From a virus: 42,831 bases of DNA. The stretch spans positions 1 through 42,831 of the IMG/VR virus record IMGVR_UViG_3300044630_003553; one strand, written 5' to 3'. A program made the translations under genes and the position numbers. The notes under the pieces were generated by a model. That model worked only from the letters and a program-made list of their open reading frames with translations. It was not told the origin of the DNA and searched no databases. This document shows, piece after piece, positions 8,716 through 42,334 of this stretch (positions are counted from its first letter, which is position 1; the number at the start of each line of letters is the position of its first letter).

Positions 8716-9942
8716 ATGGCGGAAATACTAACACTAAGAGAAGTTTTTAGGAAAGAAGGTCTCCAATTCGTGCATAAGCTTTTCGATGATTTTGTAATCA
8801 TTAGCGAAAAGCTTAATGCCACGAGGTTTGCTTTTGAAAAGCTACCAAATGGCGAATTGGAGTTCTATCGTAAAGATGGAAAAATTACCGCTATTGAGCG
8901 TACGTTAAATCAACTTTTCGAAACACCAATCAATTACATATCTAATTTACCGAAAGAAACTTTGGATAACATTCCAACCGGTTATCGATACGGTTTTAGA
9001 TACTTCAATTCTAGTGCACCTATCAATATAAAATATGATAGATCTCCACTAAACAATTTGGTTCTCACCGACATTAAAAACACGAAAACCAACAAATTAG
9101 TAGATGATATCAACATACTTAATGGTATGTCTGATTTGTTAATAGTCGAAAAACCACCAATTATTTGGTATGGTAAGTTGGATAATTCACAAAAGACTAG
9201 ATTGATGGAATATCTTCGTTCTCCTGAAGATATGCTAAACAAAAAATTCAAGACAAGCTCTTTCACTGAATACATCATTACAATACTCAATCCGAGTATG
9301 AAAAAACGTTTACTCAGTGATGGTATTGGCGGACCTATCGATTCGATCGTTTTTAAGTTTATTGGTACTGAGAATAACGAAGTATTCTACGCTAAAGCAG
9401 TAGATCCAATTATATCTCAAGTAAATAGAACAAACGACGAAGAGAGGGAACCACAAGATATGTACGGTATCATTCTATCCGATATCGTTGAATTTGTAAA
9501 AATTAACGGACTTCAAAAGTATTCTGTGCCTGAAGGGAGTAATGATGAACGCTTTATTAGTTTAATGTGTTCGATCTATAACGACTTCATTAAAAAGCAT
9601 GGGTATCGTTTTGAAGGTGTTGAACTTGACCCTCTATCTTTTGCAAATTCTCCAGAATTTGATTTGAATGCTGGGTTGATTCCTGACATAAAAACTCGAG
9701 AACTTATTAAATCTTCTACAATCAACAAGAACATATTTAAGATTCTCGTTTCTGCTTTTTCTAAACCGAAGAAAAAACCTACAGGAACAGTAACTCAAAT
9801 GTTAATTGATGATTTGAAGGAAGCTAGTGATAAAGTTAAACAAAAGGTTGAAGCTCAATCACAGGCAAAAGAATCAGTTATCCCTACATTCGAAGAGTAT
9901 CTTTTCAACAAGAAACAAGACTCTTGGAGTATCAAGGACTAA
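8716..9942 (+). CDS. divergent nucleotidyltransferase (ligase-fold-like) protein
   Basis: Near the N terminus, SEKLNATRFAFEK resembles nucleotidyltransferase motif I (KxDG/KxHG, as in EKIHGTNF of Rnl2-type RNA ligases). It is followed by ELEFYRKDGKI, a YGFRYF segment like motif III, DSIVFKF like motif IV and EVFYAKAVDP, which could be motif V. The motif I Gly is Ala (K-L-N-A), so either the protein is divergent or activity is altered. This is pattern matching, and the family call is tentative. The C terminus contains VIPTFEEYLFNKK, strikingly like the capsid tag but about 15 residues from the end. It is not part of a recognisable replication operon. Confidence 0.65.
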   Translation: MAEILTLREVFRKEGLQFVHKLFDDFVIISEKLNATRFAFEKLPNGELEFYRKDGKITAIERTLNQLFETPINYISNLPKETLDNIPTGYRYGFRYFNSSAPINIKYDRSPLNNLVLTDIKNTKTNKLVDDINILNGMSDLLIVEKPPIIWYGKLDNSQKTRLMEYLRSPEDMLNKKFKTSSFTEYIITILNPSMKKRLLSDGIGGPIDSIVFKFIGTENNEVFYAKAVDPIISQVNRTNDEEREPQDMYGIILSDIVEFVKINGLQKYSVPEGSNDERFISLMCSIYNDFIKKHGYRFEGVELDPLSFANSPEFDLNAGLIPDIKTRELIKSSTINKNIFKILVSAFSKPKKKPTGTVTQMLIDDLKEASDKVKQKVEAQSQAKESVIPTFEEYLFNKKQDSWSIKD

Positions 9943-11190: not shown

Positions 11191-11520
11191 ATGAACAACA
11201 AATACATTCCTTCATTCGATGACTTTTTGAATGAATCAAAAAAGTACAAAGGTAAAGAAGTTCTCCCTAATTGGATCGATCCAGCAAGAGATTTTGGAAA
11301 GCCACTTAAATCAGCTAAAGAACTTAAAGCTGGCGCAGAATACATCATATACGAACCGGGAATGGATAACTGGCAAGCAGAAAACATTTATCAAGGTTAC
11401 ACTGGTGGAATTCATATATTCAATTCATCTACTCAATTTGGTGAAGCGGAACCTCTAGAATTAACTGACAAAGAATTAGAATCAGCTATTAAAGCTGGTG
11501 AAATTATCAAACAAAACTAA
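11191..11520 (+). CDS. CTS-tagged protein with a YQGY module
   Basis: The tag MNNKYIPSFDDFLNESKKY predicts cleavage after LNE at residue 15. Residues 38-107 form a module that recurs twice elsewhere in the window (35378-35701 and the C terminus of 30043-31701): L-K-S-A-x-E-L-x-x-G-x-x-Y, then I-Y-Q-G-Y-x-x-G-x-x-I-F-N, then an acidic [LT]-x-[DE]-x-E helix ending A-I-K-A-G-E-I. The pattern suggests a small SH3-like or beta-barrel domain of unknown role. The start is one base after the preceding stop. Confidence 0.75.
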   Translation: MNNKYIPSFDDFLNESKKYKGKEVLPNWIDPARDFGKPLKSAKELKAGAEYIIYEPGMDNWQAENIYQGYTGGIHIFNSSTQFGEAEPLELTDKELESAIKAGEIIKQN

Positions 11521-11525
11521 TAAGC

Positions 11526-11753
11526 GTGAAACAAATACCTACATACAAAGAATTTTTGAATGAAAATTTAGATGAAGCTAAGTTTACTCCTAAAGTTCAA
11601 TTGATGGATATCCTTGATATGTTAAACGATGGATGGAGCAAAGATGAGGTGGCTAATATCATTCTTAATGCAGTAAAAGGTAAACTAGATCTTAGTGCTT
11701 ATACCGGATTCAACGGAAACGAATTATCCAAGGAAACTCAATATACAAAATAA
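11526..11753 (+). CDS. small CTS-tagged protein, GTG start
   Basis: 75 residues starting at a GTG, with the tag MKQIPTYKEFLNENLDEAKF. The perfect tag alignment supports the GTG as the true start. The remaining 60 residues (PKVQLMDILDMLNDGWSKDE, then VANIILNAVKGKLDLSAYTG) look helical; the GWSKDEVANIIL part resembles a short UBA- or HTH-like helical unit. The function is unknown. Cleavage is predicted after LNE at residue 12. Confidence 0.7.
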   Translation: MKQIPTYKEFLNENLDEAKFTPKVQLMDILDMLNDGWSKDEVANIILNAVKGKLDLSAYTGFNGNELSKETQYTK

Positions 11754-11761
11754 CTATAAAA

Positions 11762-12334
11762 ATGAAACTACAACACATTCAGTCTTTTGATGACTTCATT
11801 AATGAAGCCGTAAGAAGAACCGCTGATCAAGTAAATAAAGATGCAGAATCTTCCCTCAAAGATCAAATTGGTCGTTATTCTGAGTTAATGAAAAACAAAC
11901 CAGAAAAGGCTAATTTCTATAAAGCTATGCTCGATTTAGCTCACGCTAAAATGACAGTTCTCAACTTAAAACGTAAAGTTGATGCTCTCCGTGAATCAAC
12001 TGAATTTGATTCTTCTGATGTTGTTAATGAATCAGTTTACCCTGATAAAAACGGTCAATTGAGTTCATATGACAAGAAAACTTTTACTGAAGTTGGTCGT
12101 CATACAATAACAATTGGAAAAGACTTAGCTGCTATCATCCTTTTCGGATATTCTAAAATGGATTGGAAAGGTAAGGAAGAATGGACTACTTACGTTACTT
12201 GTACATCATACGATACAACAGTTCGTAATTATGGAAATTCTAACGGATCAATGATATATTCTGAAACATGGGATTCTGAAGATTCAGCTAAGAATTATGC
12301 AAGTCAATTGTTAAAATCATTCAAAGTTAAGTAA
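11762..12334 (+). CDS. CTS-tagged hypothetical protein, 190 aa
   Basis: The tag MKLQHIQSFDDFINEAVRR predicts cleavage after INE at residue 15. A helical region of about 70 residues follows (DQIGRYSELMKNKPEKANFY onward). A beta-rich C-terminal domain from about residue 100 contains GYSKMDWKGKEEWTTYVTCT and ends in a helix SAKNYASQLLKSFKVK. A second possible gp21 site, VVNE, sits between the two domains. I recognise no family. It overlaps the next gene in TAATG. Confidence 0.72.
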   Translation: MKLQHIQSFDDFINEAVRRTADQVNKDAESSLKDQIGRYSELMKNKPEKANFYKAMLDLAHAKMTVLNLKRKVDALRESTEFDSSDVVNESVYPDKNGQLSSYDKKTFTEVGRHTITIGKDLAAIILFGYSKMDWKGKEEWTTYVTCTSYDTTVRNYGNSNGSMIYSETWDSEDSAKNYASQLLKSFKVK

Positions 12335-12744
12335 TGCCATCAACATCTAAATCACAACAACGCCTTATGGGTATGGCTTATGCTCTTAAAAAAGGAGAGC
12401 TTAAGTTAGCTGATTTGAATGCTGAATACCGCGATCAAATTAAAGATCTTGCGGATTCTATGACGTTAAAGCAACTAGAAGATTATGCAAAAACATCACA
12501 TGAAGGTTTGCCGGATGTTAAAGAAAATATGACTACGGCTACCGTATCTTCTGTTAATGGAATGGGTGCTCCTACCATGCCTGGAAATCCAGGTACTCAA
12601 GGAGAGTTTTCAACACAAGAAACGGGTTCTGGTGATATACCTTATTCGTTGGTTAAAGGCCAACCACAAAAAAGAAAAAAGTCATCCTTTCTATCGTTTC
12701 AGGACTTTATTAAAGGTAGTGAAGAGTTAAGATCGGCCTTTTAA
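12334..12744 (+). CDS. DUF3008-like protein carrying a copy of the gp23 N-arm
   Basis: Residues 1-60 match DUF3008 (MPSTSKSQQRLMGMAYALKK, then ADSMTLKQLEDYAKTSHEGL). Residues 74-101 (VNGMGAPTMPGNPGTQ...TGSGD) share 20 of 28 positions with residues 53-80 of the major capsid protein in this window. In both, a Glu-Asn pair fitting the gp21 site (VKE-N here, LYE-N in gp23) lies exactly 10 residues before the shared segment. The C terminus SSFLSFQDFIKGSEELRSAF also resembles the capsid tag, but at the wrong end. A head-assembly role, perhaps docking where the gp23 N-arm docks, is inference. It follows a block of tagged genes. Confidence 0.8.
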   Translation: MPSTSKSQQRLMGMAYALKKGELKLADLNAEYRDQIKDLADSMTLKQLEDYAKTSHEGLPDVKENMTTATVSSVNGMGAPTMPGNPGTQGEFSTQETGSGDIPYSLVKGQPQKRKKSSFLSFQDFIKGSEELRSAF

Positions 12745-13720: not shown

Positions 13721-15106
13721 ATGATTCTAGACGTAGAAATAAACGACAACAATCTCGTAATATCTTATTACGACAAAGAAGGTAAATCAAAGATCAAAAA
13801 GTTTGATATACCACAAGCACTTAATTGGACTATTTGTTCAGCAACTGACTCTAAACGAGATCGTAACTTTTCTAATTGGGATGGAAAGCCAGTTAAAAAG
13901 ATACTCGAAAAACGCTTGAACAAATGGTCCATTTATGAGTTTATCAATAACCTTCCTCCTGAAGAAAAAGCAGAAATCACTGCTCTTAATTTCCCAAAAG
14001 TTCAATCAATAGATATTGAAACGGAAGTGATCGATTCATTTCCGGTTCCTGAAGTTGCACGTGAAAGAATTACAACTATTGCAATTGCAACTGAATCAAA
14101 CTCCACATTAGTTCTAGGTTGGAAGCCAATCTCAAAAGAACAAGAACGAGTTATTTTCGATCAACATCGAGAATATCTCAAGGAATATGGTGATTGGACT
14201 TTCAAATATATTTGCTTTGAAGACGAATACAATATGATGTATACGTTCATCAATAAATTTCTACCTAACTTCTCTTTGGCAATTGGTTGGAACTTTATGG
14301 GTTTTGACTGGAAATACATATTTAACAGATGCAAAAGATTAGGTATTGACGTTTCTATGGCTTCACCTACACGTAAACTTCAAGGTAATGATAACATTCC
14401 ACTACATATTGGAATGATTGACTACATGGAAATTTACAAACGTTGGGATCGAACCGTGCAAATTAAAGAAAGCAATTCACTCGATTTTGTGTCTAATGCA
14501 GTTTTAGGAACAACAAAATTAAAATACTCAGGGACTCTACAAGAACTATACGAAAATGATTATGACAAATATGTTTTGTATAACGCAATCGATGCTGCTC
14601 TTGTGTGTCTCATACATAAAAAATTAAAGACGATTAACTCAGTCTTATCGGTATCTTGTTTGTGCAATCTATCAATTTACAAAGCTTCATCGGCAGTGAA
14701 TCTAACTGAAGCCCTTCTTTGGAGAGGTTATTATTCACGTAACATGGTAATTGCCGATAAAAAAGTAGAAACTCCTCGTGGTGCTTATGAAGGTGCTTAT
14801 GTGAAAGAACCCGAAGCAGGTATGTTTAGAGCAGTAACATGTTTTGACTATGCCTCGCTATATCCGTCCATTATGCGACAATTTAATGTTTCACCAGAAT
14901 CATTCATAACAAAAACTCAAGATCAAACCAAACTTGAGGCACATAAACAAGACCAATCATATATTGTATCAACCACTGGTGCAATATACAATAACAAAGA
15001 AGTTTCGGTTCTTAAAGAAATTCTTACAAATCTGTACTCAGAACGTAAGACCAATAAAAATCGACACTTGGAAATTGAACGAAAACTTGCAAAAAACAAA
15101 AAGTAA
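13721..15106 (+). CDS. 43A: DNA polymerase gp43, N-terminal part (exonuclease and motif A)
   Basis: The proofreading exonuclease is complete: SIDIETE (Exo I), GWNFMGFDWKYIF (Exo II) and YNAIDAALVC (Exo III). The polymerase palm begins with motif A, FDYASLYPSIMRQFNVSPES, almost as in T4 (SLYPSIIRQVNISPE). The protein then stops in the fingers helix (SERKTNKNRHLEIERK, like T4 QRKDWKKKM) at residue 461. Motifs B and C are in a separate gene about 5 kb downstream. There is no intein-like end at the break. The two chains must associate for a working polymerase. Confidence 0.93.
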   Translation: MILDVEINDNNLVISYYDKEGKSKIKKFDIPQALNWTICSATDSKRDRNFSNWDGKPVKKILEKRLNKWSIYEFINNLPPEEKAEITALNFPKVQSIDIETEVIDSFPVPEVARERITTIAIATESNSTLVLGWKPISKEQERVIFDQHREYLKEYGDWTFKYICFEDEYNMMYTFINKFLPNFSLAIGWNFMGFDWKYIFNRCKRLGIDVSMASPTRKLQGNDNIPLHIGMIDYMEIYKRWDRTVQIKESNSLDFVSNAVLGTTKLKYSGTLQELYENDYDKYVLYNAIDAALVCLIHKKLKTINSVLSVSCLCNLSIYKASSAVNLTEALLWRGYYSRNMVIADKKVETPRGAYEGAYVKEPEAGMFRAVTCFDYASLYPSIMRQFNVSPESFITKTQDQTKLEAHKQDQSYIVSTTGAIYNNKEVSVLKEILTNLYSERKTNKNRHLEIERKLAKNKK

Positions 15107-20057: not shown

Positions 20058-21254
20058 ATGCTCAATCCTTCAAATCTTTCATTAGAAGACATTAAAAATC
20101 TCGACATTTCGAATTTGTCTAATGATGACATAAAAGCCCTGGAGGAAGAATCACTTCGATGTTACTCCTCGGAACAAGCTATTAAGCTAATCATTAACTC
20201 AATCTATGGTGCATTCGCGAACGAATACTTCCACTTCTATAACATTGCAATTGCAGAAACTGTAACGTTACAAGGACAAGATGCTATTCGTTTCACTGAA
20301 AAAATGGTTGACAAATACTTCAAAGAATTCTTCCATAAAGACAAACAGCTACATCAAGCTTTGAATGTCAAACCAGATTGGGAAGTTAAGCCAATCAAAG
20401 GTCAAGTATGGAAATACACCGATACTGACTCAGGCTACCTTATCTTCGAAGAAGTTATGGAATCCGTTGGATGGGATGGTACCGTAAAAGATTTTGTATT
20501 AGCTCTCAATAACAATCGTCTTGCTGCATATATCAAAAAAGTTTTGGATGATTATGCTAAACAACGACATACAGATAACCATCTAGATTTTGAACTTGAA
20601 ACCATTGCGGAAAACGCCATTTGGGTAGCAAAAAAGAAATATATCCAAAACATTATTTGGAAAGACGGTAAAGACTATAACAATTTATCCTACATCAAAA
20701 CCACTGGACTAGAAATTATCCAATCGTCTACTCCTCCATTTTGTAGACAAAAGCTTATTGATGTTATGAAACATATCTTTTCGAAGAAAAAACTAACATC
20801 AAAAGATAACTCTGAACTTGTAAAGGTGATTAAGGAAATCAAACGAGAATTTAAGCTTTCGAATATCGAAAAAATATCAATGACTCGAGGAATTTCCGAA
20901 TACAACAAATTTGTTCTAAACGATCAAGACCGAATGGAATTAAAATCAGGTTGTCCGATTCACGTTCGTGCCGGTGGATATCACAATTACCTGCTTAATC
21001 AAGAAGCAAAACTTAAAGGTAAATATGAATTGATTCGAGGTGGTGATAAAGTAAAATGGTATCACGCACAAGATCAATTTTGCGACGTATTTGCATATAA
21101 ATCAGGTAACTACCCTCTCGAATTTGCACCAAAAATCGATTTGGAAGTACAATTTCAAAAAACAATTCTAGACCCTCTCAACAGAATTATTGTTCCGGCA
21201 GGTTTACCAGCACTACACCCGTCTCTAGCATACACTGTTGGTGGTCTATTCTAA
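20058..21254 (+). CDS. 43B: DNA polymerase gp43, C-terminal part (motifs B and C, thumb)
   Basis: It starts in the fingers domain. After a 40-residue acidic helical N terminus (SLEDIKNLDISNLSNDDIKA) come motif B, IKLIINSIYGAFANEYFHFY (T4 KILINSLYGALGN), and motif C, YTDTDSGYL. Next are LEIIQSSTPPFCRQ (T4 METQQSSTPKAVQ) and a C terminus FQKTILDPLNRI...TVGGLF, matching T4 FQKSFVKPLAGM...LDFLFG, where T4 binds its clamp. With the N-terminal gene it makes up a whole T4-type polymerase (461+398 residues; T4, 898). Confidence 0.93.
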   Translation: MLNPSNLSLEDIKNLDISNLSNDDIKALEEESLRCYSSEQAIKLIINSIYGAFANEYFHFYNIAIAETVTLQGQDAIRFTEKMVDKYFKEFFHKDKQLHQALNVKPDWEVKPIKGQVWKYTDTDSGYLIFEEVMESVGWDGTVKDFVLALNNNRLAAYIKKVLDDYAKQRHTDNHLDFELETIAENAIWVAKKKYIQNIIWKDGKDYNNLSYIKTTGLEIIQSSTPPFCRQKLIDVMKHIFSKKKLTSKDNSELVKVIKEIKREFKLSNIEKISMTRGISEYNKFVLNDQDRMELKSGCPIHVRAGGYHNYLLNQEAKLKGKYELIRGGDKVKWYHAQDQFCDVFAYKSGNYPLEFAPKIDLEVQFQKTILDPLNRIIVPAGLPALHPSLAYTVGGLF

Positions 21255-27391: not shown

Positions 27392-28486
27392 ATGTCAGTA
27401 TACGACCTCCATTTTAATAAAGACGACGTTGCAATTAGAAACATACTAATTGGATGTCTTGCTACGTTATCAGACAGCATTGGATGGTACAATCAAATAG
27501 GAACTAGAATCGATCAGAGAATCAAGATAAACGTTCCTTTTTACTTTTCTACTACAGGTACAGAACGATATTTGCAAGACAACTTCTTAAATAACATCGA
27601 CTTTGACCCTGAAATGCTTGAGGCAGAAACTTTCTATAACAAAATCCCTAGAGGTATTGTAAATTTCGAAGGGTTTTCTATTGATACTCAAGCTATCGTT
27701 AACAAATATGTACGTATGCAACATCTCAAACAAGAGATGGATGGTACGTTAAATACCTATAGCACGGAAGCTTTTATGGTCCCTATCATAATGGACCTGA
27801 GTACTGAAGTTTATGTTGATTCGATATTAGATCAGCTTAAATGTTCAGAGGCAATTATTCGAACTTTCTATAAAGCTAAAGCTTATCAAGTAGATATTGC
27901 TTATACTAGAATACCTTGCTTGATAACATTTCCAGATGACCAAACTATGGAACGTACGGTTGAATACTCATTCACCGACAAGAAAGAGTTTAAGGTCACT
28001 TTTTCGTTGCAGGTTAAATCTCATATCCCGGTTTACAAAGAAGAGACTTCAATTTTTGCAGGTACAAATATGGGATCCTTCCAAGCAAGTATGTTCATAC
28101 CTCCAATTATTTTTGGACCTTCTGGAGGTGGAGCTTCTGCATTACAATCAAACAATGGCGTTCCTTCTAGTACTGGTCAATCTAGCGGAGACCCTAATAC
28201 CGTAGGTTACAATCCAGCACCGGTCAATCCTGATTTTGGAATACCACCAGTTGATTATGAGAATACTGGAGGTACACCACCAAGCGGAGGTAGTGGTTCT
28301 ACTGGAAGCACTGGTTCTACCGGTTCTACTGGAAGCACAGGTTCTACTGGAAGCACTGGAAGTTCTGGTTCTACTGGACCATCACCTACATTACCGCCAC
28401 CACCATATGACCAACCAACACCGGAAGGTCCATTCTGGCCAATTATTCCAGGAACTCCTTACCCTCCAGGCATTACTGGATGGTAA
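27392..28486 (+). CDS. virion structural protein with Gly-Ser-Thr repeats
   Basis: The N-terminal 250 residues form a folded domain (SVYDLHFNKDDVAIRNILIG, then PRGIVNFEGFSIDTQ, and late strands EYSFTDKKEFKVTFSLQVKS). I have a sense of having seen this pattern in myovirus tail or neck proteins but cannot name it. From about residue 250 the sequence becomes Gly/Pro/Ser-rich. A run of Gly-Ser-Thr triplets (residues 300-329) is followed by a proline-rich tail ending PPGITGW. Such tails are often flexible surface extensions. It is the first gene of the late block and has its own promoter-like element. Confidence 0.65.
   Translation: MSVYDLHFNKDDVAIRNILIGCLATLSDSIGWYNQIGTRIDQRIKINVPFYFSTTGTERYLQDNFLNNIDFDPEMLEAETFYNKIPRGIVNFEGFSIDTQAIVNKYVRMQHLKQEMDGTLNTYSTEAFMVPIIMDLSTEVYVDSILDQLKCSEAIIRTFYKAKAYQVDIAYTRIPCLITFPDDQTMERTVEYSFTDKKEFKVTFSLQVKSHIPVYKEETSIFAGTNMGSFQASMFIPPIIFGPSGGGASALQSNNGVPSSTGQSSGDPNTVGYNPAPVNPDFGIPPVDYENTGGTPPSGGSGSTGSTGSTGSTGSTGSTGSTGSSGSTGPSPTLPPPPYDQPTPEGPFWPIIPGTPYPPGITGW
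28289..28379 (+). repeat. short tandem repeat encoding Gly-Ser-Thr triplets
   Basis: Iterations of GGTTCTACTGGAAGCACT and close variants (9- and 18-base units) encode about eight Gly-Ser-Thr triplets. Third-position variation (ACT/ACC/ACA, AGC/TCT) shows that the amino-acid pattern is kept while bases drift. Copy number is likely variable. Confidence 0.8.
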
Positions 28487-29333: not shown

Positions 29334-30008
29334 ATGCATAACATTCCATCATTCGATGATTTCGTTTTAGAAGGTCTTGTCCTTGAAGCGGCTTCATCTA
29401 AAGACATCCAACGAATCCAAGATATTATTACAAAATCTAATGGAGATGAAGGAAAAATGTTGAATCTAACAAACACAATGTGTAAGTTAATTACCGACAA
29501 AAACAAAGCTTTTGATAGAGCCTTAGCTGCTGATCAAATTCTTGGAGCTGACCATCCAGTTACAAAGGCCTTTTCTGAAAGAGCCGCTGCCCTTGGAATG
29601 GATGTTACTAAGAGTTTTGCATCTTCTAAAGTTCTTCCAGGTTCTCAACGTCCTTCATCAGAGCAATTCAAATCAACTCGCCAACCAAGCAGAACTTCAC
29701 CAATTCTTCCATGCGGTAAAGTTAATCTTCAAACTGGTAAAAACCAATACTTTTCTTACAAAGAAGATTGGCATGTAAATTCAACTCTTGAAGTTTGGGA
29801 AATCGGTTACAAGAAATGGATAATCGTTTCTACTTCTGGTTCTACTCCAATTTATCAAATTGGTACTGGATGTGCATTTACACACGATCAAACTGGAAGA
29901 GCAATGTTTGGAGGTCCGGCTATAATGGTTGACTATATTGAAGCTGCTCATTGCGAAGCTCTTATTCCACTTTATGGAAAGAGCCTTTCTTGCTATGTGT
30001 ATAAATAA
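29334..30008 (+). CDS. CTS-tagged hypothetical protein, 224 aa
   Basis: The tag MHNIPSFDDFVLEGLVLEAA has two adjacent candidate cleavage points, VLE at residues 13 and 18. A helical region follows to about residue 90, then a Ser/Arg/Pro-rich linker (SQRPSSEQFKSTRQPSRTSP). A compact beta-rich C-terminal domain has CGKVNLQTGKNQYFSYKEDW and WEIGYKKWIIVSTSGST. I recognise no family. The first base pairs of a late promoter overlap its stop. Confidence 0.72.
   Translation: MHNIPSFDDFVLEGLVLEAASSKDIQRIQDIITKSNGDEGKMLNLTNTMCKLITDKNKAFDRALAADQILGADHPVTKAFSERAAALGMDVTKSFASSKVLPGSQRPSSEQFKSTRQPSRTSPILPCGKVNLQTGKNQYFSYKEDWHVNSTLEVWEIGYKKWIIVSTSGSTPIYQIGTGCAFTHDQTGRAMFGGPAIMVDYIEAAHCEALIPLYGKSLSCYVYK
30000..30007 (+). 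promoter_or_regulatory. late promoter TATAAATA
   Basis: An exact match to the T4 late promoter octamer, overlapping the end of the preceding gene and 36 bases before the next ATG. Confidence 0.6.
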
Positions 30009-36997: not shown

Positions 36998-38611
36998 ATG
37001 GCAGGATTCGTAAATAGAGATGAAACATCTGCTGGAAAACCAACTCCAGCTTCACGAAATCTCGTTAGTAAAGCTTTGAAGTCATTATCATCTTTTGGGA
37101 TGATGTATGACGATATGGTGTTGAAAAACTCCAAAGCTATTGGTATTAACGAAGATCGTTATGGATGGCGTCTCGATCCAAGAAATGTTGCTGGTGGTGA
37201 ATACGATGATTATGCACTTTTTGCTAATCTGTCTATGACGGATATCAATTTACGTAAATCAATTTCCATCTTTGACAAATCATACCCGAAAAAGAGAGAA
37301 GATCTTAGAAAATTCGCTATACAAGACGAAATTGAAGATATCCTCGATACACTATGCGATGAATGCGTAGTTTATGATGACAAAAATTATTATTGCTACC
37401 CTCTAGCATTTGATGATGAAACACTTGAACCTGGAACTCTAGAAGCTATAAAAATCGCACTAGAAACAAACTTCAAGAGAGTATACCAATACTTTGGTTT
37501 CAATAATGACATTGCCGCTTGGTCATATTTCCGTAAGTGGTTAGTTGATGGTTATCTAGCATTTGAAATCATCTACAACAAAGAGCAAACTAGAATCATC
37601 GGATTCAAAGAGCTCGATCCAATTTCTTTAGAACCTGGTCTTGATAAAGAAGGTAAGAAAATTTGGAAACAATTCAAAGGACAACCTAATAAAGAACGTG
37701 TTATATACGATTCTCAAGTTATCTACATATCATATGCCAACGTAAACACGGTCAATCGTGTTTCTTATGTTGAGCGTCTCATCCGTTCATTTAACTTACT
37801 CCGTATCATGGAGCACTCAAGAGTTATTTGGGCAACAGTTAACGCATCTTTCAAAACTAAATTTGTTATTCCAGTTGGTGGTAAATCAAAAACCAGAGCT
37901 AAACAATCGCTCGGCGTTTTGATGCAAAACTATCGTGAGCAAATTGACTTTGACACCGATTCAGGTGAACTTAAAGTTAATGGTAAAGCGATGATGCCAT
38001 TTAACAAAGAGTATTGGTTACCATCAGGTGAAGCCGGCGAACCAACAATCGAAACAATTGGTAATGATGGTCCAGACTTATCTGATACTGATGCTCTTAA
38101 ATACTTCCGTGAGAAGTTGATTAAAGTATCTAAAATCCCTCTTTCTCGTTTTGATATGGAATCACCTCCTTCATGGGAGATGAATGCTGAAGGTATGACT
38201 CGTGATGAAATCAAATTTGGACGTTTTGTTACTCGTCTCCGTTCGGTTTTCCAAGAGATTCTAGTAAAACCACTTTGGATTCAAATGTGTTTGGACTTCC
38301 CTGAATTGAAAGAAGATGACGCTTTCAAAGCTCAAATTGGTATCAAATATCACAGATACAATATCTTCGAAGAAATGAAAGAAATTGAAATTCTACAAAA
38401 ACGACTTGACTTCGTACAATCTATGAAAGACGGTCTAGTAGAACAAGATGCTAATATGAATGAAATTAAATACTTTGCATCGGAATTCTTGATTCAACGA
38501 TTCCTCGGTCTTTCTGCTGAAGACTTACGTCTTAATAAGAAACTTAAACAGGTTGAAGATGAAGAGAAACTTGAGAAAGCTAAGAAAGATGCAGAAGCAA
38601 CTGGAATGTAA
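36998..38611 (+). CDS. 20: portal protein gp20
   Basis: It forms the dodecameric head vertex through which DNA is packaged. It has 537 residues (T4, 524). Characteristic segments are ELDPISLEPG, FVIPVGGKSKTRAKQSLGVL, MMPFNKEYWLPSGEAGEPTI and the conserved DALKYFREKLIKVSKIPLSR followed by MTRDEIKFGRFVTRLRSVFQ. The C-terminal helix is charged (LKQVEDEEKLEKAKKDAEA). The order portal - protease/scaffold - capsid matches T4 20-21-22-23, but no genes equivalent to 67 or 68 separate it from the protease. Confidence 0.93.
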   Translation: MAGFVNRDETSAGKPTPASRNLVSKALKSLSSFGMMYDDMVLKNSKAIGINEDRYGWRLDPRNVAGGEYDDYALFANLSMTDINLRKSISIFDKSYPKKREDLRKFAIQDEIEDILDTLCDECVVYDDKNYYCYPLAFDDETLEPGTLEAIKIALETNFKRVYQYFGFNNDIAAWSYFRKWLVDGYLAFEIIYNKEQTRIIGFKELDPISLEPGLDKEGKKIWKQFKGQPNKERVIYDSQVIYISYANVNTVNRVSYVERLIRSFNLLRIMEHSRVIWATVNASFKTKFVIPVGGKSKTRAKQSLGVLMQNYREQIDFDTDSGELKVNGKAMMPFNKEYWLPSGEAGEPTIETIGNDGPDLSDTDALKYFREKLIKVSKIPLSRFDMESPPSWEMNAEGMTRDEIKFGRFVTRLRSVFQEILVKPLWIQMCLDFPELKEDDAFKAQIGIKYHRYNIFEEMKEIEILQKRLDFVQSMKDGLVEQDANMNEIKYFASEFLIQRFLGLSAEDLRLNKKLKQVEDEEKLEKAKKDAEATGM

Positions 38612-38665: not shown

Positions 38666-40558
38666 ATGAGCAATAACAAATATCTACTCGTATTGGAAAG
38701 ATCGGAAGGTAATTTATCCGCTTCCAAAGACGGTGATAAATATGTGCTTGAAGGTACTTTTACTGAAATCGGTGTTAAGAATAAAAACAACCGAATATAT
38801 GACGAAAAAGAACTAATGCCACATATCAAAGAGCTCCAAGAAAAATTAAAAGGAAACAAACTTCTTGGTGAACTTGACCACCCAAAATCTTTCGACATTT
38901 CGCTTAAAAATGCATCACATATTATTGAAGATATTGCATACGATCCGTCATCTAAAAAAGTGACAGGTCGAATCCGTCTTCTTAATACTGACGCTGGAAA
39001 ACAAGCAATGGCACTTGTTGATGCTGGTGTTCCACTTCACATTTCTAGCCGAGCTGCTGGTGTTGTTGAGTCTAATGGCCATGTTAAAATCAAAAAAATG
39101 TTTACTTATGACTTGGTAGCTGATCCTGGATTTGCTAATGCTGAGCTTAAAAGAGTAAACGAATCTTTCGGTTTTGATGATGACGCATTGGTATCAATCT
39201 ATGAAATGGATGAGGTTCCAAACATCATTGAATCTGCTGAAGATACATATACTGAAGAAAACAAAACCACAAACATAGAAACAAAAATCAACGAAATGGA
39301 TTCTAAAAAATACATTACAGTTGAAGACTTTAACGAGTACTCAAAGATTGTAAAAAACGAAGTTGAGAATCTCAAAAAGGCTTTAGCTGAAGCCAACACT
39401 GCTAAAGAATCTTCCTCTGTTAATGAAGGATTGGTTCGTTATGCTGAAGAAACCGCTAAGAGAGTTAACCACATTCAAGAATATGTTGGTAAACTAGCTG
39501 AATCGGTTGACGGTCTCATCTCACACAACGATTACATTATTGAAAACCTAGAAAAGGTTAAAAATTATGCTGAATTGGTTGGTGAAAGATCAAATCAAGG
39601 AATTAACTATTCTGAAAAACTTGCTGAATCAGTTGACCACTTAATTGAATACACTAAAGTTGTTGCTCAAAAAGCTGACCAAGGTATTGAATACACTAAA
39701 GTAGTTGCTGAAAAAGCTGATCAAGGTATTGAATTTGCTAAGTACATCGCAGAAGAAACTTCTAACCGTTGGAACTATCAATCACATATCAACGAACAAT
39801 TAGATAACGTTATTTCACATAACGATTATATCGTTGAAGGTACCTCTTCTATTATCGAATACACTGAGTATTTGAAAGAACAAACTGAAAATTTAACTGG
39901 TTATTTGAATCACATCGTTAAGGAAATTAACGAAGGTAAAGCTGAAATCAAAGCTAATCCAGTAAATGAAGGTGCTAATAACACTCCTGCTTCTACTGAA
40001 GATGTTGTTAAAATCGATGAAGGTAATGGTAATTACGAAAAATCTCTTACTGATAAATTAAATGCTATTCTTGAGTCTGCTAAAACTGCAAACGAATTAG
40101 CTAAATCTGATAAACTTCACTTCTTAAATTTCCTTTCTGAATCAAAAAGAAATCAATTTGCTTCTCTAACTCCTGAGAAAAAAGATGAAGTTATCAATAC
40201 ATTCTCAACTAATAAATTCTACGGTTCAGTTGATGCTGAAAAACTTTATGAATCAGTATTCATCGTTGCTCAACCTACATTTAATTGGTTAACTAATATG
40301 CCTGCTAAATATCGTGATTCTTGGAATGGTTTGAACGAATCTCAAAAGAATGCTATTAAAGCTCAAGCTTCTGTAAAAGTTCTTGATAATCAATATGCGA
40401 TCGATAATTTCTGGTCTACTAGAGATCTTCGCCCTTCTAAAGTAGAAGCTCCTCTAAATGAAAATGTAGCTCCTATAACTGAATCATCTAAGTATGAAAC
40501 TCCAACTTCATATATGCAAACAGTTGAAGCTGAATTGAAAAGACGTTTCAAAAGATAA
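38666..40558 (+). CDS. 21: prohead protease gp21 fused to a scaffold-like region
   Basis: Residues 1-170 are a T4-type prohead protease: YVLEGTFTEIGVKNKNNRIY, GELDHP (His72) and LHISSRAAG (Ser127). The His-Ser spacing of 55 equals that of T4 His85 and Ser140. Residues 211-630 are helical with internal repeats (YTKVVAQKADQGIEYTKVVA; EKLAESVDHLIEY) and many [LIV]-x-E sites. They end YMQTVEAELKRRFKR, like the gp22 scaffold C terminus (VYAKVASRF). No separate gene 22 is present, so this appears to be a protease-scaffold fusion. KINE210 is a cut site exactly at the junction, and ATG 39296 (MDSKKYITVEDFNEY) could serve as an internal start for free scaffold. Confidence 0.88.
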   Translation: MSNNKYLLVLERSEGNLSASKDGDKYVLEGTFTEIGVKNKNNRIYDEKELMPHIKELQEKLKGNKLLGELDHPKSFDISLKNASHIIEDIAYDPSSKKVTGRIRLLNTDAGKQAMALVDAGVPLHISSRAAGVVESNGHVKIKKMFTYDLVADPGFANAELKRVNESFGFDDDALVSIYEMDEVPNIIESAEDTYTEENKTTNIETKINEMDSKKYITVEDFNEYSKIVKNEVENLKKALAEANTAKESSSVNEGLVRYAEETAKRVNHIQEYVGKLAESVDGLISHNDYIIENLEKVKNYAELVGERSNQGINYSEKLAESVDHLIEYTKVVAQKADQGIEYTKVVAEKADQGIEFAKYIAEETSNRWNYQSHINEQLDNVISHNDYIVEGTSSIIEYTEYLKEQTENLTGYLNHIVKEINEGKAEIKANPVNEGANNTPASTEDVVKIDEGNGNYEKSLTDKLNAILESAKTANELAKSDKLHFLNFLSESKRNQFASLTPEKKDEVINTFSTNKFYGSVDAEKLYESVFIVAQPTFNWLTNMPAKYRDSWNGLNESQKNAIKAQASVKVLDNQYAIDNFWSTRDLRPSKVEAPLNENVAPITESSKYETPTSYMQTVEAELKRRFKR

Positions 40559-40729: not shown

Positions 40730-42334
40730 ATGTATCTCATTAACGAACAAGAAATCTTCGGTAAATGGGCTCCAATTATCGAGTCTACCGTAGGTATCAA
40801 TGAGCGTTCTAAAGTTGAGTGGATGTCTAAGTACTGTCACTACCATGAATTGTACGAAAACAACTCTTACGCTGTATTAGGCGCTGTTAACGGTATGGGC
40901 GCTACCCGTTTCCCAGGTGACCCAGGAACTCAAGCTGGTTTTGCAACTCAAGACACTGGTTCTGGTGATAAAGCTCACACATTGCTTCCACTTGCTATGC
41001 AAGTTGCTGCACAAACAATCGGTCTAGACCTAGTTCCAGTAGTTCCAATGCCTGGTCCAATGGGTGTTCTCACTTACTTGGATTTCGTATACGCTGGTGG
41101 TCAAACAGGTGGTACTGCAACTGGTACAAACATTCCTCTACTTATTAAAGCTGACTTTGGTACTAACCAAATCCCTGGATTCACTGCTGGTGCTACTTCT
41201 GCTTCAACTAACGGTCTAGTTTTTGCTTATGTAGGTTCTTCACGTCTTGACGGTCAACCTATCTTCCACTTAAGAGGAGGTTTAACAGGTGGTACTATCC
41301 TTTCTACCTTAAATGGTTTAGTTATTGGTGGTGTTACTGCAACTTCAGGTGCTTTCACAGTTGAATTAGTTAAAGCTCTAGAAGACCACATCACTGGTTT
41401 CTCTGGTCAAGCTCTTGCTAATAACGACTACACTGGATTCGATCTTAACGATCCATATTCACGTTCTCAAGGTGAAAGTACTACTGACAACGTAATGAAC
41501 TTGAGTCTATTCAACAAATCAGTTGAAGCTAAGACTTTCCAAGTTGCAGCTGCTGTAACTCGTGAGCAAGTTCAAGACTTGAAACAATTCGGAGTAGATG
41601 CTGTTTCTCAAGTAGAATCAGTTCTTATCAATGAATTGACTCAGTCAATCAACAAGAACATCCTTTCACGTATGTTTGCTCTTGGTGAAACTAACCACTT
41701 AAATGTTTACCGTTCACAAGGTTCACTTAACTTCTTCTTGAACTTAGGTGCTACTACTGTAGCAGTATCAGCAACTAACTTCGGTGCTTATATCCAAGAT
41801 ACTACTCTTTCTGGTATCCAGATGTCACCAACTGAGGTTGTTAACTCTGCATCTGAAAACATGGCTACTCGTCAGAGAAAAATCATGTCTAAGATCCTTG
41901 CAATCGCTAACCTAATTGCAATCCGCGGTCGTCGTGGTCCAGCTACTTTCGTTGTAACTAACGGTCAAGTATGTTCTGCACTTCAAGATATCGCTGGATT
42001 CGTTCCTGCTCCGATGGCTAACACTATCAACCAAATGTCTGGTTCTCTTTACCCAATTGGTACACTTGCAGGTCTTGCAATCTACAACGATCCTAACATG
42101 TCTTGGAACGATACTCGTTTCTGCGTAGGACGTAAAGGTGACGGTAACTCTCCAGGTCTAGTATTCATGCCTTACTTAATGGCTGAATCTGTTCAGACTA
42201 TCGCTGAAGGTACTATGGCTCCTAAAGTTGCGGTTAAATCTCGTTACGCTTTAGTTGAAGCTGGTTTCCACCCAGAAACTATGTACTTAACTTCAGGTGT
42301 TTACTTGAACTCTGCTCTTGGATTGTTAGTATAA
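40730..42334 (+). CDS. 23: major capsid protein gp23
   Basis: Forms the capsid lattice. It has 534 residues (T4 gp23, 521) and sits downstream of portal and protease, as in T4. The N-terminal delta peptide (MYLINEQEIFGKWAPIIES, compare T4 LLNKWKPLLEGEG) should be removed after LYE at residue 43. The mature N-arm is then NNSYAVLGAVNGMGATRF. Other T4-like segments are FQVAAAVTREQVQDLKQFGV (T4 KAAYSIELAQDLRAVHGMD), LINELTQSINKNIL and a C-terminal FMPYLMAESVQTIAEGTMAP, then SRYALVEAGFHPE. Codons such as GGT, GCT, AAC and CGT are frequent, as in highly expressed genes. A strong terminator follows. Confidence 0.93.
   Translation: MYLINEQEIFGKWAPIIESTVGINERSKVEWMSKYCHYHELYENNSYAVLGAVNGMGATRFPGDPGTQAGFATQDTGSGDKAHTLLPLAMQVAAQTIGLDLVPVVPMPGPMGVLTYLDFVYAGGQTGGTATGTNIPLLIKADFGTNQIPGFTAGATSASTNGLVFAYVGSSRLDGQPIFHLRGGLTGGTILSTLNGLVIGGVTATSGAFTVELVKALEDHITGFSGQALANNDYTGFDLNDPYSRSQGESTTDNVMNLSLFNKSVEAKTFQVAAAVTREQVQDLKQFGVDAVSQVESVLINELTQSINKNILSRMFALGETNHLNVYRSQGSLNFFLNLGATTVAVSATNFGAYIQDTTLSGIQMSPTEVVNSASENMATRQRKIMSKILAIANLIAIRGRRGPATFVVTNGQVCSALQDIAGFVPAPMANTINQMSGSLYPIGTLAGLAIYNDPNMSWNDTRFCVGRKGDGNSPGLVFMPYLMAESVQTIAEGTMAPKVAVKSRYALVEAGFHPETMYLTSGVYLNSALGLLV

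Follow-up and report, generated by a model that had tools for sequence, protein, structure and literature searches.

The stretch of DNA analysed here (hereafter the window) is a 42.8-kb virus-record fragment of a T4-like phage, whose plus strand encodes a gp20-like portal (36998..38611; Pfam Portal_T4, 2.3e-72), a gp21-like prohead protease with a long C-terminal extension (38666..40558; Pfam Peptidase_S77, 2.3e-13; PHROG head maturation protease, 5e-40) and a gp23-like major capsid protein (MCP; 40730..42334; Pfam Gp23, 7.6e-38), the model of which matches T4 gp23 (7vrt, E 6e-10). The long C-terminal region of the protease ORF contains repeats (IEYTKVVAQKADQG...), and this ORF is likely a protease-scaffold fusion. 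By MCP, the nearest of the named phage records is LR756500, a 462-kb uncultured phage (56% identity), with the Lak megaphages, other huge phages and Bacteroidota phages such as Tenacibaculum phage PTm1 being more distant. Elsewhere in the window, reading of the translations by eye showed a DNA polymerase apparently split over two ORFs (13721-15106 and 20058-21254), separated by about 5 kb in which ribonucleotide reductase-like genes lie. The product of 1759-2847 resembles, by appearance only, a Rieske-type oxygenase (CxH...CxxH pattern), an unusual phage cargo; 35709-36197 encodes a TnsA-like endonuclease domain (PF08722, 1.8e-16), with the portal two genes downstream; and 27392-28486 gave a weak match to the T4 gp15 tail sheath stabiliser and ends in a collagen-like GSTGSTGST tail.

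The gene on which we focused (12334..12744, +) encodes a 136-aa protein, here called the gp23 partner, that begins with a DUF3008 domain at residues 4-62 (12343..12519, +; Pfam PF11450, 3e-10, 40.6 bits against a cut-off of 24), in agreement with the DUF3008-like assignment of the first-pass annotation. Three helices were predicted at residues 6-53, and the AF2 model of the protein consists of a small three-helix domain (pLDDT ~82-87 over residues 11-50) and a disordered tail; fold comparison of the protein gave no significant match. The domain is followed by a predicted prohead-protease site, V62-K63-E64/N65 (12517..12525, +; the slash here and below marks the predicted cut), which lies at -14 from GMG in the same register as the L-Y-E/N site of gp23, and by a gp23-like arm at residues 65-107 (12526..12654, +) with the core VNGMGA..PG.PGTQ..TGSGD at residues 74-101 (12553-12636, +). 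A basic KRKK linker (residues 113-116; 12670..12681, +) then leads to a capsid-targeting-like C-terminal motif, FLSFQDFIKG (residues 119-128; 12688..12717, +), found by motif scan and overlapping an AF2 helix at residues 122-134. The first-pass annotation had made no mention of this motif.

Comparison of the two proteins showed that partner residues 74-101 and gp23 residues 53-80 are identical at 20 of 28 positions, and that over the longer stretch of residues 64-107 against 43-86 identity is 24/44. The Smith-Waterman score between partner and gp23 was 129, compared with a mean of 33 (sd 4.8, maximum 55) for 1,000 shuffles and 52 for the runner-up ORF of the window, and tblastn of the partner against its own record returned the gp23 arm at E = 4e-12. 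In both proteins a Glu-Asn pair (E64-N65 in the partner, E43-N44 in gp23) stands exactly 10 residues before the arm block. The Gp23 model (PF07068) found no match in the partner, of which only the arm, about 44 residues, resembles gp23. The ORF, the 20/28 block and the spacing of the Glu-Asn pair had all been claimed in the first-pass annotation and were reproduced here; the arm likeness is real and larger than that annotation had claimed. Codons were equal at 14 of the 23 identical residues (M and W excluded), where codon usage alone would give 11.2, and because this is near expectation the likeness is one at the protein level, not the product of a DNA duplication of recent date. On this ground, and because within clades a phage's own MCP is not the best match to its partner, recent gene duplication or conversion was rejected as the main explanation.

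In gp23 itself, the propeptide (residues 1-43; 40730..40858, +) is analogous to that of T4 and ends at the predicted L-Y-E/N site, after which comes the N-arm mimicked by the partner (residues 44-86; 40859..40987, +). Across 34 relatives, L41 and E43 at the site and G55, M56, G57, G77, S78, G79 and D80 in the arm are invariant. Residues 39-97 are unstructured in the MCP monomer model (pLDDT < 50), so that this model is mute on docking. All nine clade-A genomes, as well as G032 and PTm1, have an [LIVM]xE site at -14 from GMG in partner and MCP, and G012 has the site at -16 in partner and MCP alike. The register of the partner site differs from that of the MCP in G005, G016, G017 and G020, and four clade-B partners, with TNE, ENE, KDE and ANE, have no hydrophobic P3. 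Where the arm is encoded on its own, the protein starts 6-9 residues ahead of the site (MKQVKE/N, MKPIKE/N, MKSKIKISE/N), and since these shortest forms have almost nothing upstream, the cut seems to serve the creation of the arm N-terminus. Cleavage of the partner is predicted from motif and register.

Searching IMG/VR with the partner sequence yielded 34 DUF3008 loci. The first-pass annotation had set absence of the arm in homologues against its own reading, and such absence was not seen: the GMG...GSGD arm occurs at 31 of the 34 loci (at L006 in an adjoining gene), the exceptions being L020, where the ORF ends at the contig end, L035 and L036. In 17 aligned DUF3008-arm homologues GMG and GSGD are invariant and the linkers vary; in place of KRKK, a linker rich in K or mixing K, E and D is found in many relatives, and as a rule the arm leads into a charged linker and then into another copy of the targeting-like motif at the C-terminus. 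A separate gene of ~80-90 codons encodes the arm in L006/G004, G031, G026, G027, G038 and G046, with a cleavage-like site near its start and, at its C-terminus, a K-rich stretch and FKKFxDFIKGSEExRxAx; that of G046 has an N-terminal targeting-like motif ahead of the cleavage-like site. Among these, DUF3008 was read in G004, in G031 and in G026 and its near-copies, where it is a separate nearby protein with its own targeting-like motif, and several clade-A genomes have the arm without any carrier. G033 and G035 had been taken to lack the partner, a view overturned by a motif scan, which found the arm on a 212-aa carrier without DUF3008 that the BLAST-based search had missed. No partner was found in five shorter fragments (G028, G037, G040, G044 and G045), which is weak evidence at such length.

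The module was also found in PTm1, where ORF-299 (L175:3163-3996), located between portal and protease, reads LLE/SYGQQPPSASVGMGAVELPKVSTST..RGSGDVP, for comparison with INE/SYGSQGPEAVPGMGAVKLPSVSQNA..RGSGDFA in the MCP arm of the same phage. Whole-record scans revealed exactly one non-MCP arm protein each in LR756500, PTm1 and G021, and no partner in PAU and MA9V-1, both of which have the MCP arm. In IMG/VR, the only homologue of ORF-299 was PTm1 itself, and the domains related to this carrier in PAU, pT24 and MA9V-2 are without the arm. Its N-terminal domain is common to DarB-like antirestriction proteins of Burkholderia phages (tblastn) and to phrog_2859; a "ParB-like" label for the domain found no Pfam support and was dropped. 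Varied extra domains follow the targeting-like motif in the arm proteins L138:1501-2391, L016:10001-10843 and L294:3983-4702, some of them behind a further NE-type site, as if cargo were deliverable.

These results indicated that the arm is not part of DUF3008 and is a separable module; DUF3008 as a required functional core was rejected because the arm occurs without it. Of the first-pass reading, in which a DUF3008 protein and gp23 share a processed arm, the same-register site held up, being kept in the window's clade including stand-alone forms, whereas the role of DUF3008 had been overrated.

Alignment of both arms across relatives had been proposed in the first-pass annotation as a check, and co-variation of the partner arm with the gp23 arm was seen at clade level. 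For 21 phages with both arms readable, falling into 8 clades, all-pair similarity of MCP arms and partner arms was averaged by clade and double-centred, and the true pairing was compared with all 40,320 pairings. With gapped alignment 3 of the 40,320 clade pairings were as good, and with ungapped anchors only 1 of 40,320, the true pairing itself, while an earlier 7-clade version gave 1/5,040 and a conservative 5-clade version 1/120; all of these figures are indicative, because the clades were set by eye from MCP sequences without a tree. Clade arm types include GMGAxxFP..GSGDKAH, GMGNVAP..GSGDKF and GMGAVKLP..RGSGD, and such clade-specific forms tend to agree between MCP and partner, although the loop between the anchors can be short in the partner and long in the MCP. 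Inside clades a phage's own MCP was not consistently the closest to its partner, and the coupling is therefore slow, acting over long times. One old duplication followed by divergence would not by itself suffice for the clade matching, which would be expected from a shared, drifting binding site or from repeated capture of the local arm. Matching of the arms by lineage suggests that the partner plugs into shell sites meant for the MCP's own arm.

A motif scan covered 53 non-overlapping plus-strand genes of the window. The targeting-like motif was present in 16 of the 53 (14 in the first 20 residues, 2 in the last 35, none internal), counts that are descriptive because the pattern was written after the window had been inspected; in other loci the pattern did match internally in a few cases. 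The C-terminal carriers are the partner gene and 8716-9942, whose motif at residues 389-399 is VIPTFEEYLFNK. The partner has no match at its N-terminus, its motif sitting at the C-terminal position given above, and in some relatives this C-terminal copy has degenerated. N-terminal CTS-like motifs occur in the upstream neighbour (IQSFDDFINEA; 11762..12334, +) and in neighbouring genes at 11526..11753 (+, IPTYKEFLNEN) and 11191..11520 (+, IPSFDDFLNES). The N-terminal-motif genes start at 455, 1105, 7488, 11191, 11526, 11762 and 28537, and further ones at 29334, 31713, 32319, 32786, 33946, 34804 and 35378; the motif is of the [ST][FY]xx[FYW] type, mostly followed by xE. Fourteen motif-led genes suggest, from sequence, that internal head proteins are unusually numerous here. 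The window motif resembles the T4 internal-protein starts MKTYQEFIAE (IpII/IpIII) and MKTFKEF (T4 record), and in T4 the CTS sends proteins into the core and is then removed by cutting (PMC5694885).

Structural work on T4 offers a frame for the arm. Before expansion, the N-terminal regions of gp23* lie disordered in the head interior; expansion brings them to the outer surface, where they form N-arms and N-fists that bind neighbouring subunits, the N-fist contacting four (PMC9958956); the N-fist is disordered in the five portal-facing subunits, where the partner capsomer is missing (PMC7136217). By analogy through the gp23 fold of the MCP, the arm here would be expected to become ordered on expansion and to bind neighbours as in T4 (PMC9958956), and a separate arm of the mature type would dock at the neighbour-arm site.

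We therefore lean, by a modest degree, towards a reading in which the partner is a minor head protein acting as a surrogate MCP N-arm, imported with the core, cut in parallel with gp23 and docking in the N-arm site. The partner would enter the prohead via its C-terminal capsid-targeting-like helix, as its motif implies, and the conserved register suggests that the gp21-like protease would cut it after VKE64 and gp23 after LYE43, freeing an arm that would begin at the point equivalent to the start of mature gp23. The mimicry and the clade-wise co-variation point to docking of the freed arm (GMGxxxxP...GSGD) in the gp23 N-arm/N-fist site of the lattice, with the charged linker and C-terminal helix remaining on the core or DNA side, so that the partner would be riveted to the shell. 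The places best suited might, speculatively, be those where an arm site lacks its capsid neighbour, at the portal vertex or other vertices, and DUF3008 or another upstream domain would be a passenger, cut away or kept inside. The mimicry itself, its conservation and clade-wise co-variation, the separability from DUF3008, the targeting-like motif and the site register in the window's clade are observations; import, cleavage, docking, location and purpose are what we infer.

An alternative that we consider unlikely is that the partner is a transient linker between core and shell, with the arm on the gp23 lattice and the C-terminal helix on the scaffold, and that it is taken apart by the cut, with most of it then lost from the head. 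One short protein does combine a targeting-like motif and an MCP-like arm with a protease site before the arm, and the T4 core proteins gp22, gp67 and gp68 are cut to fragments (PMC5694885). However, the link would stay unbroken, because the predicted cut leaves the arm joined to the C-terminal helix; the stand-alone forms retain a site just 6-9 residues from their start, and an arm of the mature type suggests a role after cleavage.

It seems rather improbable that the arms of MCP and partner both bind a third protein, such as the protease, scaffold or a cement protein, which the partner would recruit or compete for. A common co-evolving binder would suffice for the co-variation, and there is a precedent in the 80alpha scaffold and SaPI1 CpmB, which have an MCP-binding RIIK motif in common and are competitors for a single site (PMC5644958). 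A third protein of this kind was not identified here, though, and the other predicted protease substrates, the CTS proteins, are without the arm, which argues against a general protease exosite.

We gave little credence to the arm being a head-retention tag that anchors passengers such as DUF3008, the DarB-shared domain or coiled coils inside the head, to be ejected along with the DNA. The carriers do differ, that of PTm1 having a domain also found in DarB-like antirestriction proteins, and L016, L138 and L294 have fused C-terminal domains, but the predicted cut would sever upstream carriers from the arm, a carrier is missing altogether from several clade-A genomes, and a single copy per genome would be odd for a general tag. 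Chance likeness, or a partial duplication of gene 23 that has no function, is hardly credible and already contradicted by the conservation: a single partial-duplication event could yield the arm, but the shuffle scores, the GMG and GSGD invariant in 17 homologues, the repeated occurrence on unrelated carriers, the clade-wise matching and a codon identity without marked excess all stand against it.

If docking of the partner in the MCP's own arm site is true, it would represent a new class and show how some of the largest phages known could, by simple means, delay the anchoring of proteins to the shell until maturation is complete, possibly at special vertices. It is possible, if doubtful, that such "arm surrogates" form a general class, in which a copied maturation site and N-arm are cut in parallel with the MCP and fill vacant N-arm sites at the portal or other vertices, solving a symmetry problem, with a module that evolves together with the capsid and passes from carrier to carrier. 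Many short genes now called "hypothetical", along with an anonymous domain family, would become testable head proteins; PTm1, which is cultured and has both ORF-299 and the MCP, can be tested directly, and an arm peptide that attaches by itself could be of use for fixing proteins to phage heads.

We grouped the arm protein, on its predicted processing, with prohead-processed minor head proteins. In a literature search of partial coverage we found no paper on DUF3008, which is weak evidence; on N-arm mimics it brought up just the 80alpha/SaPI1 work and one review of T4 in general, and among the papers covered there was no minor head protein that mimics the maturing arm of the capsid protein. 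Cyanophage DUF3008 proteins have an equal N-terminal domain, and S-SCSM1 ORF93 ends in a targeting-like RTFKEFLEYIE, but the six cyanophage/marine-virus members that were read have no arm; the arm-less S-SCSM1 protein carries the label virion protein, and the S-SCSM1 paper reports virion mass spectrometry (PMC9602691). As in SaPI1 CpmB and the 80alpha scaffold, two proteins have a short motif in common, which there binds the MCP (PMC5644958) and is shared with the scaffold, whereas here it is shared with the MCP together with the maturation site; in the Smith-Waterman comparison the protease/scaffold ORF scored only 43, within the shuffled range. T4 IpI-IpIII have a targeting-like motif (MKTYQEFIAE, against the SFDDFLNE type in the window), while the partner motif is C-terminal, has no cut site after it in the window's clade, and comes with an MCP-like arm. 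The partner resembles T4 gp24 in being a second, separately encoded, MCP-related protein whose processing by the protease is predicted, but gp24 is a full paralogue of gp23 and the partner shares only the arm. As in T4 gp23/gp23*, the arm follows the prohead-protease site of an MCP with the gp23 fold; GMG..GSGD is not found in T4 gp23, however, and here a second protein without the capsid fold carries a copy of the arm.
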